Below, one piece after another: positions 2,848 to 7,421 of a DNA stretch of 64,000 bases. The notes beneath the pieces are model-generated. The model was not told the origin of the DNA. It did not search any database and was given only the letters and a program-made list of their open reading frames with translations. Within the stretch, counting starts at the first letter, position 1, and the number at the start of each line of letters is the position of its first letter. The stretch is taken from the NCBI GenBank assembly GCA_002702065.1, contig NZXX01000009.1, positions 186,001 to 250,000 of the forward strand. Direction: 5' to 3'. This DNA is from Anaerolineaceae bacterium (GTDB lineage Bacteria > Chloroflexota > Anaerolineae > Aggregatilineales > Phototrophicaceae). The position numbers and the translations under genes are program-made.

Positions 2848-3318
2848 ATGGCAGCATGGTGGGGATCACGCAGCAATGTATCCTCGCGTTTGCGGTTAGA
2901 AGTCGAAGCGATGCGTGCGGCGTTTGGGAATACGTTCAAACTGGTCGTACCGCAGTTCGGGTTGTTGCACTGGGAAGGCATTGTGGAAGTGAACCTGTCC
3001 ACCATCACCCAGCCAGAACATCGCCTGAAAATCGTGTACCCGAATGAATATCCCAACCGCCCGGCAGAAGCCTATATCCTGAAGCCGCGCATCTACAGCG
3101 AGAAGCACCAGTATGAAGACGGTCAGCTGTGCCTGTTTAACCCCAAAGATGGTGAACAGTATGGCTGGAATCCGGGTCGCTCTACCGCGGTGACGGTCAC
3201 AGGATGGGCGGTGCAGTGGTTGTACGCCTATTACACCTGGCGGTCAACCGGTGACTGGCCGGGCATCGAAGAACGTGTGCGGGCGGATACACCCCTCCCG
3301 CGCCGACGGAGACGATAA
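2848..3318 (+). CDS. E2-like (ubiquitin-conjugating fold) protein
   Basis: A 156-residue protein with the order of landmarks of a UBC-fold E2: a beta region with YPNEYPNRPAEAYI (residues 64-77, the YPxxPP loop), then DGQLCLF with the candidate catalytic Cys95, then a Trp-rich stretch ending in helices (GWNPGRSTAVTVTGWAVQW and YYTWRSTGDWPG). In E2 enzymes this cysteine receives a ubiquitin-like protein as a thioester from an E1. The ATG at 2848 has CAGGAG eight bases before it; a GTG at 2839 is less likely. JAB and E1-like genes follow with a 4-base gap and a 4-base overlap, which strongly supports the assignment. No ubiquitin-like protein gene is adjacent. The C-terminus ends in a run of five arginines. 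Confidence 0.85.
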   Translation: MAAWWGSRSNVSSRLRLEVEAMRAAFGNTFKLVVPQFGLLHWEGIVEVNLSTITQPEHRLKIVYPNEYPNRPAEAYILKPRIYSEKHQYEDGQLCLFNPKDGEQYGWNPGRSTAVTVTGWAVQWLYAYYTWRSTGDWPGIEERVRADTPLPRRRRR

Positions 3319-3322
3319 CGTC

Positions 3323-4420
3323 ATGATACGAAGTTTGAATTTCACCCGCAGTGGTGTGCCCAACCTGGTGGTGGCACGGCGGGGTCTGGAAAAGATGGCG
3401 GCAGCCGCCAGCCACTTTATCGAAGACGAAACCGGCGAAGCGATGGTCGGGCTGGTCGTGCCCGGTGAGCGTACCGGCATCGACACGATTTATATCCTGG
3501 ACACCATCTCACCGGACGACAGCGCCGTGCGCATGCTGCATACCTTCCAGCAGGGCGATGAACGGCAGGATGAAATTATCTGGTGGTTGCAGGAAAACTG
3601 GCGCGCCGCCCGTGAAAAACAGCGTGGCAGCGCGGCAGCACCGGCCAAATGGGATGTGCCGCTGCGTTATCTGGGTGACTGGCACAAGCAGCCCGGTTAC
3701 ATGATCGCCCCCAGCAGCGGCGACCAGCGAACTGCGCTGGACTGGCTGGACGACGAAGAAAACGGCATGGCAGCCCTGCTGGCCCCGATTGTCACGCTGG
3801 GGCATCCGTCGACCACCGTCAACGCCGGGTCGAGCGCCAATTTTGTCACGATGCCGCAAAGCGACGGTCAATACCTGCGAGTTGATTTCTGGTACATCAG
3901 CCGCGAGGTACGCCTGTTCCAGCCCATCATCCCGGCTATTTACCCGGACGATCAACTGCCAGCGTTATCCGCCTATCCCTGGCATCTGGTCAACCAGCAG
4001 CGGGTGAATGAGGAATTTGCCCGGCTACGTGAGGACGAACTGTTTACCTCGATTGTGTTGTGGGACGCGACCGAGCAGCCACCGCTGGAAATCTGCCTGA
4101 TGACCGCGCGGATGGGGTCCGACCGGGTGTTACTGATCGTCACGCCCTGGAATTACCCGGAAGCACCGCCAAGTGCGCGGGTCGCACCATTTACCCAGTT
4201 GGATGCCGGCGACGATATGTATGAAGTCTTCGAGGATATGTGGGCAGAATCCACCCCGGTAGACGACCCGCCCGGCTGGACATGGTCGGCGGACAAGTAC
4301 CTGACCGACTATATCCGGGCACTGGAAAACGCCCTGGGCATGACGCCAGCATCCCAACCCAGCAGCACGGATGATGAACCGGTGCTTTCGCCTGCGCCAT
4401 CAGAAGAGGAAGAAGTATGA
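3323..4420 (+). CDS. JAB/MPN-domain protein with C-terminal UBC/RWD-like region
   Basis: A 365-residue protein. The N-terminal 160 residues fit a prokaryotic JAB/JAMM fold, the isopeptidase type that removes ubiquitin-like tags: Glu39 in ETGEAMVGLVV, and GDWHKQPGYMIAPSSGD with His121, Ser131 and Asp134 at JAMM spacing. The second zinc histidine (expected at 123) is Gln, encoded CAG, so zinc binding may be altered. Residues about 232-340 contain LLIVTPWNYPEAPPSARVAPF and then Trp residues and a long helix, resembling an E2/RWD fold without a catalytic cysteine; this is inference. The tail is acidic. The ATG at 3323 follows the E2 stop by four bases with GGAG upstream. Confidence 0.75.
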   Translation: MIRSLNFTRSGVPNLVVARRGLEKMAAAASHFIEDETGEAMVGLVVPGERTGIDTIYILDTISPDDSAVRMLHTFQQGDERQDEIIWWLQENWRAAREKQRGSAAAPAKWDVPLRYLGDWHKQPGYMIAPSSGDQRTALDWLDDEENGMAALLAPIVTLGHPSTTVNAGSSANFVTMPQSDGQYLRVDFWYISREVRLFQPIIPAIYPDDQLPALSAYPWHLVNQQRVNEEFARLREDELFTSIVLWDATEQPPLEICLMTARMGSDRVLLIVTPWNYPEAPPSARVAPFTQLDAGDDMYEVFEDMWAESTPVDDPPGWTWSADKYLTDYIRALENALGMTPASQPSSTDDEPVLSPAPSEEEEV

Positions 4421-5325
4421 GCTGGGATCGCGTCGAGAATTTGATCGGCAGCGAGAATCTGGCCTTGCTGGCCCACAAACGCGTTGCCATCGTTGGTCTG
4501 GGGTCCGGCGGGGGGCAGGTCGCCATCAGCCTGGCGATGAGCGGCGTTGGCAATTTTGTGCTGATCGACGATGATGTGCTGGAAGAAGGCAATGTCGTAC
4601 GCCATGTTGCCGACCGGCGGTACATCGGCCAGCCCAAAGCCGAAGTCGTGGCCGAACTGATCCGCCTGCGCAACCCGAACGCCCAGGTCGAAACGCATGT
4701 CGGGCGCATCGAACAGCACATGGACACGCTCGACCATGTCGATATGCTGGTCGTGGCGGTCGATGGCGAAAATGCCAAGTACGTGCTTAATCAGGCGGCG
4801 CTGGACCGCAACCTGCCAGCGGTGTACGCCGGGGTGTACGAACGCGGCGAGGGCGGCGACGTCGTAATGATCTACCCGTATGACGGGCCCTGTTATGCCT
4901 GCTGGGCTGCCGAACTGCGCGACGAACAGGCGGTCACGGCCAACCCCGGCGAGGAACTGGACTATGGCATGATTGGGGCCGATGGTACACTGGAAGCAGA
5001 ACCGGGCCTGTGGCTGCATGTCACGCGTGTCGCATCGGTTCAGGCGCATCTCGTGCTGAACGAACTGCTGAAAGGGACAGATGTCTACGAACCGATGCCG
5101 GGCAACACGGTTATTCTGGCCAACAGTGCGCTGGAGATTATCACCGGGCAGGTGACGCCCCCGCACAGCGCCGTGTGGGTCACCATCGAACGCGACCCGG
5201 ATTGTCTGGTATGTGGCAGCAAGCTGCGTCACGAACAGGCGCTAAAGGACGCGCCGCTGTCGCTGGATGACCTGATGGATGCCACAGGGATTGTGATGCA
5301 GGACGAGAACGAGGATAAAGCGTAA
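4417..5325 (+). CDS. E1-like ThiF/MoeB-family adenylating enzyme
   Basis: A 302-residue E1-like enzyme expected to adenylate the C-terminus of a ubiquitin-like or sulfur-carrier protein. Visible motifs: the ATP-binding loop VAIVGLGSGGGQVA (residues 23-36), Asp51-53, Asn59 and Arg62 in EEGNVVRH, Lys74, Asp116 in VVAVDGENAK, and two zinc pairs CYAC (159,162) and CLVC (263,266). These four are the only cysteines, so there is no free cysteine for the thioester step of ubiquitin-type E1s, as in MoeB-like adenylation. The start ATG overlaps the JAB stop by four bases (ATGA). Position after E2 and JAB makes a protein-conjugation role more likely than molybdopterin or thiamine synthesis. Confidence 0.9.
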   Translation: MSWDRVENLIGSENLALLAHKRVAIVGLGSGGGQVAISLAMSGVGNFVLIDDDVLEEGNVVRHVADRRYIGQPKAEVVAELIRLRNPNAQVETHVGRIEQHMDTLDHVDMLVVAVDGENAKYVLNQAALDRNLPAVYAGVYERGEGGDVVMIYPYDGPCYACWAAELRDEQAVTANPGEELDYGMIGADGTLEAEPGLWLHVTRVASVQAHLVLNELLKGTDVYEPMPGNTVILANSALEIITGQVTPPHSAVWVTIERDPDCLVCGSKLRHEQALKDAPLSLDDLMDATGIVMQDENEDKA

Positions 5326-5615
5326 TGGAAGAGAATCAGAACCCGGTGGAAAACAACGTCGACAACCATACCGCATCCACGCCGGACGAAACACGCCAGC
5401 CCCCCACACCACCGGAGGATGAAAGCATGGAAGATCGACTCGAACGTCTGGGCGGCGAACCAGCCCCGGTCATCACACCGGAGGAATTCGCCCGGTTGCA
5501 ACAGGCCGGGCAGGTACACATTGATTCGCGCGGACGCGTACGCACCACCCGCCGCAGCGATGCCGAAGCTGGTGTCTCGCTGCGCAAGCGCCGGGCATGG
5601 TATGACACCGAATGA
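5325..5615 (+). CDS. Small acidic hydrophilic protein of the E2/JAB/E1 operon
   Basis: A 96-residue protein I do not recognise. The first 45 residues are Pro/Thr/Glu-rich and probably disordered; residues 50-66 (ITPEEFARLQQAGQVHI) could form a helix-strand unit; the C-terminus is basic then ends AWYDTE. It has no ubiquitin-like C-terminal GG, although RLGG occurs inside at 41-44. The start overlaps the E1 stop by one base and its end overlaps the next gene by 14 bases, so it is translated with them. It could be an adaptor, a substrate or a divergent modifier; none of these can be shown from the sequence. Confidence 0.65.
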   Translation: MEENQNPVENNVDNHTASTPDETRQPPTPPEDESMEDRLERLGGEPAPVITPEEFARLQQAGQVHIDSRGRVRTTRRSDAEAGVSLRKRRAWYDTE

Positions 5616-6783
5616 CGAAACGATAGGGCTGCGGGCGGACATGGTTCGCAGTCTGAAAGAAAAAGGCGAACTGAAGGACCCACGCCTCGAAGCGGCCTTT
5701 CTGAGCGTGCCCCGTCATCACTTCCTGCCGGAACTCACGCCGGAACAGGCCTATATGGATGAAGCCCTGCCGGTCAAACAGGACGAGGCAGGCAACGCGA
5801 TCAGCTCATCCAGCCAGCCCACCATGATGGCGATGATGCTGCGCCAGCTCGACCTGAAGCCCGGCCATAATGTGCTGGAGATCGGCACGGGCACGGGTTA
5901 TAACGCGGCCATTATGCAGCATGTCGTCGGCGATAACGGCAAGGTCACGACGCTGGAACTCGACCATGATCTGGCACAGTCCGCCGAAAAAGCCCTGCAA
6001 CGGCTGAGCTTGGGCAGTATCCGCGTGGTCCAGGCCGATGCCGCCGGGGGTTACGCGCCCCGCGCCGCCTATGATCGGATTATCGCCACCGCAGGCATGT
6101 GGGATATACCGGCTATCTGGAAGCGGCAGCTCAAGCCACGCGGGTTAATCGTCGCCCCGATCTGGCTGGACGCGATGCAGGTCAGCGCCACGCTGCGCCC
6201 GGAAAAAGGCGATACCCTGTATAGCAACGTGAACCTTCCTTGCGGCTTTATTCGCCTGCGCGGCGTCAATGCCGGTCCCATCGTCACCCAGCGCGTCGGT
6301 CACTCCGGCCTGATACTGACCTCCAACGAAGTGCCGGCCCTGGACAGCGCGGCGCTTCATGCCCTGTTGTCCGAGGAAGAAGACCATACGCTGCTGGATA
6401 TTCGGCTGGCTGGCTCGGATTATTTCCACAGCTTCCTGACTTATTTGATCCTCAATTTGCCGCCGGGGTTCACCTTCGCGGCCTGGCAGGTCAGCGCCAA
6501 TCAACAGCTCTATGGCCTGGGTGGCGCCGGGTTTGCGTTGATTGGAACCGGAAGCGCCTGTTTTGTGCCGTTTCACGGTCACGGCGAAGCCCATGCCTAT
6601 GGTTCATCTGATGCTTTTATGACGTTACAGAGTATACTGGCTGCATGGGATGCTGCCGGACGGCCTGACTGGCGCGTGCTGCGACTGCGGATGCACCCGA
6701 AAACAGGGCCGCCCCCCACCATCAACAAAGGCTTGCTCTATACACGTCAGGATCATTATATTCACGCATGGCTGAAAGATTAA
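5602..6783 (+). CDS. Protein-L-isoaspartate O-methyltransferase family protein with long C-terminal extension
   Basis: A 393-residue protein. The first ~220 residues match isoaspartyl methyltransferase (PIMT): LSVPRHHFLPE, then ISSSSQPTMMAMML, and SAM motif I LEIGTGTGYNAAI (about 92-104). The enzyme methylates isoaspartate or aspartate carboxyls using SAM. Typical repair PIMTs are about 210 residues; this one has about 180 extra residues, as in longer homologues that include RiPP-tailoring members. ATG 5602 overlaps the preceding small gene by 14 bases; a later ATG at 5641 is possible. Its place behind the E1-like gene and the small protein suggests a linked substrate, which is inference. Confidence 0.85.
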   Translation: MTPNDETIGLRADMVRSLKEKGELKDPRLEAAFLSVPRHHFLPELTPEQAYMDEALPVKQDEAGNAISSSSQPTMMAMMLRQLDLKPGHNVLEIGTGTGYNAAIMQHVVGDNGKVTTLELDHDLAQSAEKALQRLSLGSIRVVQADAAGGYAPRAAYDRIIATAGMWDIPAIWKRQLKPRGLIVAPIWLDAMQVSATLRPEKGDTLYSNVNLPCGFIRLRGVNAGPIVTQRVGHSGLILTSNEVPALDSAALHALLSEEEDHTLLDIRLAGSDYFHSFLTYLILNLPPGFTFAAWQVSANQQLYGLGGAGFALIGTGSACFVPFHGHGEAHAYGSSDAFMTLQSILAAWDAAGRPDWRVLRLRMHPKTGPPPTINKGLLYTRQDHYIHAWLKD

Positions 6784-7421
6784 TCACCCTCAACACCATA
6801 CAGGCAGCGCTCGACCTGCGACACTTTGACGCCGCTGCCGCGCAGGAACCGATGATGCCCGGCAGTCGTTCGCGCAATCTGCCCTCCAACGGTAAAAATT
6901 CGCGGCAGGCAGGGGTGCTGCTGCTGTTGTATCCCCTGGCGGACGAACTGCATTTTGTCCTCACCCGCCGCACCGAAACGCTGCGCGGCCACAGCGGTCA
7001 GGTCAGCTTCCCCGGCGGCAGGCGCGACCCGGAGGACGATACACTGATCGACACGGCGCTGCGTGAAACCCACGAAGAACTGGGCATCTGGAACCCGGAC
7101 ATGCATATTCTGGGCAACCTGACACCGATCTATATTCCCCCCAGCAACTTTGAAGTGTTCCCGACCGTCGCCGCGCTCGATGAAGTCCCCGAATTTCAGC
7201 CTAACCCGGCAGAAGTGGCCCAGGTCTTCAGTGTGCCGGTGGGTGCGCTGCTGGATGATGATTTTAAGCGGGTTGAACACTGGCCGTTTAATGGCAACCA
7301 GGTGCGTATCCCGTTTTATGCCTTCAACGACCATAAAGTATGGGGGGCAACCGCCATTATGCTCAGCGAGTTCGAGGGCCGCCTGCGGGCCGTTCTGCCA
7401 CAGGACATGCCGCAAAAATGA
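6768..7421 (+). CDS. Nudix hydrolase, CoA pyrophosphatase type
   Basis: A 217-residue Nudix protein. The signature LRGHSGQVSFPGG followed directly by the Nudix box GGRRDPEDDTLIDTALRE...HEELG is the combined motif of the CoA diphosphatase (NudL/YeaB-like) group, which cleaves CoA or acyl-CoA to 3',5'-ADP and phosphopantetheine. The start overlaps the methyltransferase gene by 16 bases and its stop overlaps the next start (ATGA). An alternative within the family is another nucleoside diphosphate substrate. Confidence 0.85.
   Translation: MAERLITLNTIQAALDLRHFDAAAAQEPMMPGSRSRNLPSNGKNSRQAGVLLLLYPLADELHFVLTRRTETLRGHSGQVSFPGGRRDPEDDTLIDTALRETHEELGIWNPDMHILGNLTPIYIPPSNFEVFPTVAALDEVPEFQPNPAEVAQVFSVPVGALLDDDFKRVEHWPFNGNQVRIPFYAFNDHKVWGATAIMLSEFEGRLRAVLPQDMPQK

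Follow-up and report, generated by a model that had tools for sequence, protein, structure and literature searches.

A conserved E2-JAB-E1 operon of Aggregatilineales and a small protein as its candidate partner

We analyzed a stretch of 64,000 nucleotides, here called the window, from Anaerolineaceae bacterium (Chloroflexota; Anaerolineae; Aggregatilineales; GenBank assembly GCA_002702065.1, contig NZXX01000009.1, positions 186,001 to 250,000 of the forward strand), in which an operon encodes a UBC-fold E2, a JAB/MPN protein, a ThiF-like E1 and a protein of 96 amino acids, named the AWY protein here. We found that this gene set is, as judged by sequence comparison, a core module of its lineage and not a chance cluster, because gene order was conserved across loci, the E2 was present in 87 of 90 good genomes of the order, and the core of the AWY protein had a median pS (synonymous differences) of 0.60 versus a pN (nonsynonymous differences) of 0.048. 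By analogy with Cap2/Cap3 of the cyclic oligonucleotide-based antiphage signaling system (CBASS), the operon may be a ubiquitin-less conjugation module with the AWY protein as the conjugated moiety, a proposal that we put somewhat below an even chance. An earlier note on this DNA had described adjacent genes for an E2 with a candidate Cys95, a JAB/MPN protein and a ThiF-like E1, followed by the 96-residue protein, and its coordinates, gene order and 4-base spacing all held. The E2 and JAB genes are separated by a 4-base gap, the JAB and E1 genes overlap by 4 bases, and the E1 gene overlaps the 96-residue open reading frame (ORF) by 1 base. The features are as follows, in window coordinates.

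2848..3318, + strand: E2 (UBC-fold) gene, 156 amino acids; codon of Cys95 at 3130-3132, motif HQYEDGQLCLF
3323..4420, + strand: JAB/MPN protein gene, 365 amino acids; C-terminal UBC/RWD-like domain probable
3356..3958, + strand: MPN domain, residues 12-212; E36, H121-K122-Q123-P124, S131, D134; JAMM site without second His
3995..4336, + strand: predicted UBC/RWD-like domain of the JAB protein, residues 225-338; no E2-type active-site cysteine motif
4417..5325, + strand: E1, ThiF/MoeB-like adenylating enzyme, 302 amino acids; sole cysteines C159, C162, C263, C266
5325..5615, + strand: AWY protein, 96 amino acids; variable N-terminus, near-invariant core, variable tail
5436-5603, + strand: AWY core; end motif GVSLRKRRAWY at 5571-5603

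Scanning genome contigs with the JAB sequence as query returned 66 loci, all from Chloroflexota and apparently from Anaerolineae, including Aggregatilineales. The order E2-JAB-E1 was kept in these fetched loci wherever the contig covered the genes, mostly with overlaps or short gaps. Within the window's order the E2 was detected in 135 of 154 genomes, and the module was single-copy in nearly all genomes. In a sample of the class from beyond the order, E2 matches were no more than weak and general, and in 400 genomes of the phylum no full JAB-UBC protein was found outside the window's family, partial matches to the JAB region occurring in 4 of the 400. Pairwise identities of E2, JAB and E1 were correlated (r 0.79-0.83). 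In close comparisons within the order, the E2 had higher identity than SSB and GatB, two housekeeping proteins, although not in comparisons with the divergent genome G178. This conservation, together with near-universal presence in the order, argues for a housekeeping role over that of a mobile defence system. Neither of the outcomes that the earlier note had named as counting against it, a first gene without the UBC fold or genes not conserved together, was observed.

The AWY protein was likewise present in 135 of 154 genomes. E2 and AWY protein occurred together in 130 genomes, each alone in 5, and 14 genomes had neither (Fisher 4e-12, uncorrected for phylogeny); three families (f57, f58 and f60, 12 genomes) were without both. 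In genus g7, about 10 kb separate the AWY gene from the E2 operon, and the neighbor of the AWY gene is the Nudix gene that it also precedes in divergent members. From this arrangement, E2-JAB-E1 and AWY-Nudix appear to be two gene groups, each retained also where the two lie apart. The core of the protein, RLERLGGEPAPxITPEEFARLQxxGQVHIDxRGRVRxxRRxxAEAGVSLRKRRAWY, was near-invariant across the order, with a variable, low-complexity N-terminus before it and 0-10 variable residues behind it; the terminal residue was not conserved. Lys88 (counted over 33 aligned orthologs) and Asp67 were invariant. The earlier description of the protein as acidic applies to its N-terminal half, to which the acidity is confined, and not to the conserved core, which is basic. 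To judge from the substitution pattern, the strong purifying selection on the core shows that the ORF is a real protein. A structure model of modest confidence had three short helices and one hairpin, and the protein is thus not predicted to be a beta-grasp protein; profile searches did not support such a fold either.

Profile searches bore out the assignments of the first three proteins. The E2 matched PADLOC E2 models down to 2.8e-16, and its family profile matched UBE2L3 in the PDB at about 1e-5. Cys95 was kept in 87 of 88 relatives, the 88th being unreadable; by profile and sequence, then, the protein has the UBC fold and the active-site cysteine of the E2 superfamily. The E1 matched Pfam ThiF at 5.9e-33 and contained the adenylation domain, the GxGxxG motif, the R, K and D residues and the CxxC pairs of the ThiF/MoeB superfamily. 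However, the catalytic cysteine that thioester-forming E1 enzymes have in a crossover loop or Cys domain was not found. The E1 of the window contains exactly four cysteines, all within the two CxxC pairs, and a MoeB-like E1 of the same genome has an extra cysteine (SCAEGG) at a position where the E1 family of the operon has none. MccB, a peptide-adenylating relative of ThiF, was among the best PDB matches of the E1.

The JAB protein was detected weakly by PADLOC JAB models (down to 1.3e-6, partial match). In its AlphaFold model (pLDDT 88.9), residues 12-212 matched BRCC36 and Rpn11 with a Z of 15 (root-mean-square deviation of about 3 Å over about 150 residues; VIA-align against the PDB, covering the MPN part only), and the modeled fold is an MPN fold close to these two proteins. 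The JAMM/MPN+ peptidase motif (E, HxH, S, D) was incomplete: E36, H121, S131 and D134 are present and the second His is replaced by Gln. Among relatives, the site read HKQP in 83 and HRQP in 2 (85 of 88 together) and HKHP in the three divergent members, a distribution suggesting that absence of the second metal-binding His is the derived state. This is tempered by G178, one of the three HKHP members, which carries the label of the window's own family; its module (G178:C19, L096) is as divergent as that of the distant family f59. Residues 225-338 of the model form a helix, a four-strand meander and further helices, an element order that fits an RWD/UBC-like domain. When compared with the E2 profile, this C-terminal part gave a P of 3.6e-4 in hhalign, with a probability of only 37%, versus a P of 0.26 for the MPN part. 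The JAB protein thus probably, though not provenly, ends in a UBC/RWD-like domain.

In the proposed conjugation scheme, the E1 would adenylate the AWY protein on a carboxylate, in the simplest case at the C-terminus once the variable tail behind the invariant ...RKRRAWY has been trimmed. Since the E1 is without a thioester cysteine, Cys95 of the E2 would take the AWY protein directly from the adenylate, and the E2 would then attach it to amines on its protein targets; the MPN-RWD protein would act as scaffold or reverse the conjugation. It has been reported that Cap2 conjugates cGAS without a ubiquitin-like protein (Ubl), so E1-E2-JAB chemistry can work on a non-Ubl protein (PMC10097602), and Cap2/Cap3 was termed the only known such case in 2025 (PMC12355090). 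By this analogy the AWY protein would be the likeliest moiety or partner. The premise of the earlier note, that such clusters usually carry a beta-grasp modifier, is too strong, as Cap2/Cap3 does without one. Among the three readings which that note had offered, the small protein as a non-canonical partner was the best supported, by co-occurrence, conserved adjacency, the non-beta-grasp prediction and the lack of a lineage-matched Ubl. The scheme is further supported by order-wide co-conservation, retention of both gene groups when unlinked, the invariant core with a variable tail, the cysteines of the E1, the variants of the JAMM site and the fact that other Ubls of the genome belong to other systems.

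Several points weigh against this scheme. Its main weakness is the C-terminal residue of the AWY protein, which is not conserved, so that tail trimming must be assumed; cGAS proteins conjugated by Cap2 end in a conserved Gly/Ala (PMC10097602). The sole candidate peptidase in the operon, the JAB protein, has a degenerate site in most members. E2 proteins normally receive their cargo from an E1 thioester, and an adenylate would be an unusual direct donor. Of the 10 genomes that have the E2 or the AWY protein alone, most, though not all, are fragmented. Finally, the AWY protein, with its invariant Lys88, could equally be an adaptor, a regulator or a target.

Copies of the AWY motif also occur on other proteins. 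A search of the order with the AWY core alone matched three further proteins (E 5.7e-5 to 4.4e-4). Two of them are encoded by prophages in the scaffold position, ahead of the capsid gene, and matched scaffold profiles at 1.2e-8 and 0.0024; in the third, an Rhs protein, the motif immediately precedes the C-terminal domain. A profile built with these three carriers found another prophage with the motif on the scaffold and, in degenerate form, on the capsid protein, as well as a second Rhs-type C-terminus and a phage-like protein of 2,600 amino acids. The located copies are listed below.

L116:10216-10920 and L117:7107-7796 (- strand): prophage proteins at the scaffold position with an N-terminal AWY-like motif
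L114:6028-6756 and L114:4591-5580, - strand: prophage proteins, capsid included, with an N-terminal AWY-like motif
L088 around 2035-2169 and L113:4934-5578: Rhs-type proteins with the AWY motif directly before the C-terminal domain

Every carrier came from a system-bearing family (Fisher about 5e-4 to 2e-3, uncorrected for relatedness). To judge from this restriction, the motif may serve as a host-specific recognition signal in these families, and the E1/E2/MPN set may be what recognizes it. No match below 1e-3 was found in about 318 genomes of the class outside the order, the scaffolds of two related IMG/VR viral contigs (L133 and L134) were without the motif, and direct searches of sequenced phages and IMG/VR gave nothing convincing. 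Taken further, the operon could represent a second class of ubiquitin-type transferases, a core bacterial pathway in which a non-beta-grasp substrate passes directly from an E1 that has no thioester cysteine to an E2 and whose motif was copied by prophages (on scaffold and capsid) and by Rhs proteins (beside C-terminal domains) in order to use or evade the pathway; we regard this broader reading as somewhat unlikely.

The same motif copies bear on an alternative in which the AWY protein is an adaptor, a substrate-recognition factor or a dedicated target, modified on Lys88 or docked via the AWY motif, while the activated carboxylate comes from another molecule. This alternative fits the co-occurrence of E2 and AWY protein just as well. 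That the motif is found at the N-terminus or in mid-protein elsewhere is easier to reconcile with recognition than with activation of a C-terminus, and both the invariance of Lys88 in the aligned orthologs and the unconserved C-terminal residue agree with the alternative. However, no other molecule of matching distribution was found, and both Rhs copies of the motif have Arg or Gln in place of the Lys. We consider this alternative unlikely, though likelier than those that follow.

A third possibility is a beta-grasp modifier encoded elsewhere in the genome. As the earlier note had stated, none is recognizable in the operon itself: Pfam, NCBIfam and PADLOC detected no Ubl among its proteins. 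A dedicated beta-grasp modifier was not found with PF02597 and PF14454, the two profiles used, by which a divergent Ubl could be missed. PF14454 matches in the window's genome were rejected as modifiers, being located in PRTRC-type loci beside a PRTRC-type ThiF, and one of them matched PRTRC protein C. Two such loci with ThiF and Ubl-like protein C were present (G000:C2, L101 and L111; G000:C1, L102 and L112), one of them on a 47.7-kb contig. In the window's genome, PF02597 matched a MoaD-MoaE fusion and a SAMP1-like protein (G000:C3:268022), the likeliest candidate, which would have to be shared by two E1 enzymes. It scored above the NCBIfam SAMP1 cut-off (65.3 vs 60) and has a desampylase-like JAB in its cluster, and ThiS-family proteins were found in 153 of the 154 genomes of the order. 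On the other hand, such proteins were just as present in families without the E2, and the SAMP1-like cluster includes a JAB of its own, a sulfurtransferase and a separate E1 that carries a rhodanese domain and the usual cysteine. Moreover, in the E2-positive genomes G163, G083 and G300 the sole ThiS-family match was in a MoaD-MoaE-sized frame. These results weakened the earlier suggestion of a modifier encoded elsewhere, which now seems quite unlikely. The SAMP1-like cluster (G000:C3, L100 and L108) constitutes a second, sulfur-type Ubl system.

Two other candidates were rejected. A proteasome partner was not supported, as PF00227 had no match in the window's genome and matched in 18 of the 154 genomes of the order, nearly all from one genus. 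These matches (G346:C19:2415-2861 and 17 other genomes) were nearly all from g7, mostly in frames of 240-390 amino acids, with one genome elsewhere. The second E2 match of the genome (C1:915548) belongs to a CBASS locus (G000:C1, L083:9524-12554) with a cGAS-like enzyme, an E2-only protein and a nucleoside-phosphorylase-SAVED effector.

The operon runs on past the AWY gene, with similar overlaps, into two further genes.

5602..6783, + strand: PIMT-type methyltransferase, 393 amino acids; extra C-terminal domain; WXXXGXP motif as WDAAGRP near the C-terminus
6768..7421, + strand: Nudix hydrolase, CoA pyrophosphatase-like; adjoins the AWY gene also where that gene left the E2 operon

Divergent lineages, and genomes that have the E2 operon at another place, likewise keep the Nudix hydrolase gene next to the AWY gene (L094, L096, L098, L091-L093). 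The methyltransferase, a homologue of protein isoaspartyl methyltransferases (PIMT), matched NCBIfam TIGR04364 at 2.4e-76, yet below the cut-off of that model, and also Pfam PCMT. Nearly all relatives encoded next to an AWY gene share its WXXXGXP motif; an extra domain and this motif are marks of the PIMTs associated with ribosomally synthesized and post-translationally modified peptides (RiPPs), as described in a 2026 review (PMC13001092). An enzyme of this type keeps a peptide-modification reading alive, and it makes the third suggestion of the earlier note, a role other than protein tagging, more plausible. The AWY protein would then be a RiPP-like precursor in which the methyltransferase makes aspartimide or isoaspartate at Asp, the E1 and E2 doing acyl chemistry. 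Consistent with this idea, the methyltransferase gene directly overlaps the AWY gene, Asp67 is invariant and MccB is among the best PDB matches of the E1. However, no such methyltransferase was detected next to the AWY gene in g7 or in the most divergent members, where AWY protein and E2 persist, and so the enzyme is probably an addition to the operon. A core, invariant "precursor" would also be atypical, and RiPP pathways, to our knowledge, do not include E2 or MPN proteins. We judge peptide maturation improbable. Finally, an antiphage role, by sensing or tagging phage proteins, with prophage motifs as decoys or triggers, would agree with the mostly antiphage roles of E1-E2-JAB modules studied elsewhere (PMC10097602, PMC11153139) and with motifs grafted on phage head proteins only in genomes of system-bearing families, but is highly improbable for a single-copy, near-universal module whose E2 is conserved above SSB and GatB in close comparisons and which, unlike the CBASS locus of the same genome, has no effector gene and no mobile context.

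A candidate conjugation operon that is single-copy in nearly all genomes of an order, unlike CBASS, probably has a cellular function. The operon narrows experimental tests to a few proteins and defined residues, and the motif copies in phages and Rhs proteins provide an independent handle on what the system recognizes.

When the operon was compared with known systems, membership in CBASS, Bil or the operon types described in 2006 failed on the features tested. Like CBASS type II Cap2 (E2-E1)/Cap3 (JAB), it combines E1, E2 and JAB with a non-beta-grasp partner (PMC10097602, PMC11153139, PMC12355090). In contrast to CBASS, it has neither CD-NTase nor effector, its E2 and E1 are encoded separately, the E1 is without a free cysteine, and the partner, with tails of 0-10 residues, does not end in a conserved Gly/Ala. 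Its MPN protein adds a putative UBC-like domain and mostly lacks the second His, and the module is core and order-wide instead of mobile. BilABCD also has E1, E2 and JAB genes in one operon (PMC11354881), with an ISG15-like Ubl that the operon lacks; the E1 here consists of one short adenylation domain and has no Cys domain. Imiditides (type I pamtides) similarly have a small Asp/Pro-rich protein beside a PIMT homologue with WXXXGXP (PMC13001092). The genes of the window agree with this arrangement, including the extra C-terminal domain of the PIMT, and aspartimide formation is conjectural; they differ in the E1, E2 and MPN genes and in a partner whose core is invariant and which persists without the adjacent methyltransferase. 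E1-like, E2-like and JAB genes also occur together in operon types 6a-6e of Iyer et al. 2006, and type 6e has RWD-like inactive E2 domains as well (PMC1779556). Unlike the window operon, types 6d and 6e carry Ubls and types 6a-6c mostly have the E2 fused to the E1; an MPN protein fused to a UBC/RWD-like domain together with an AWY protein is not among these types (PMC1779556). Whereas all of types 6a-6e were described as sporadic (PMC1779556), the window operon is nearly universal in one order.

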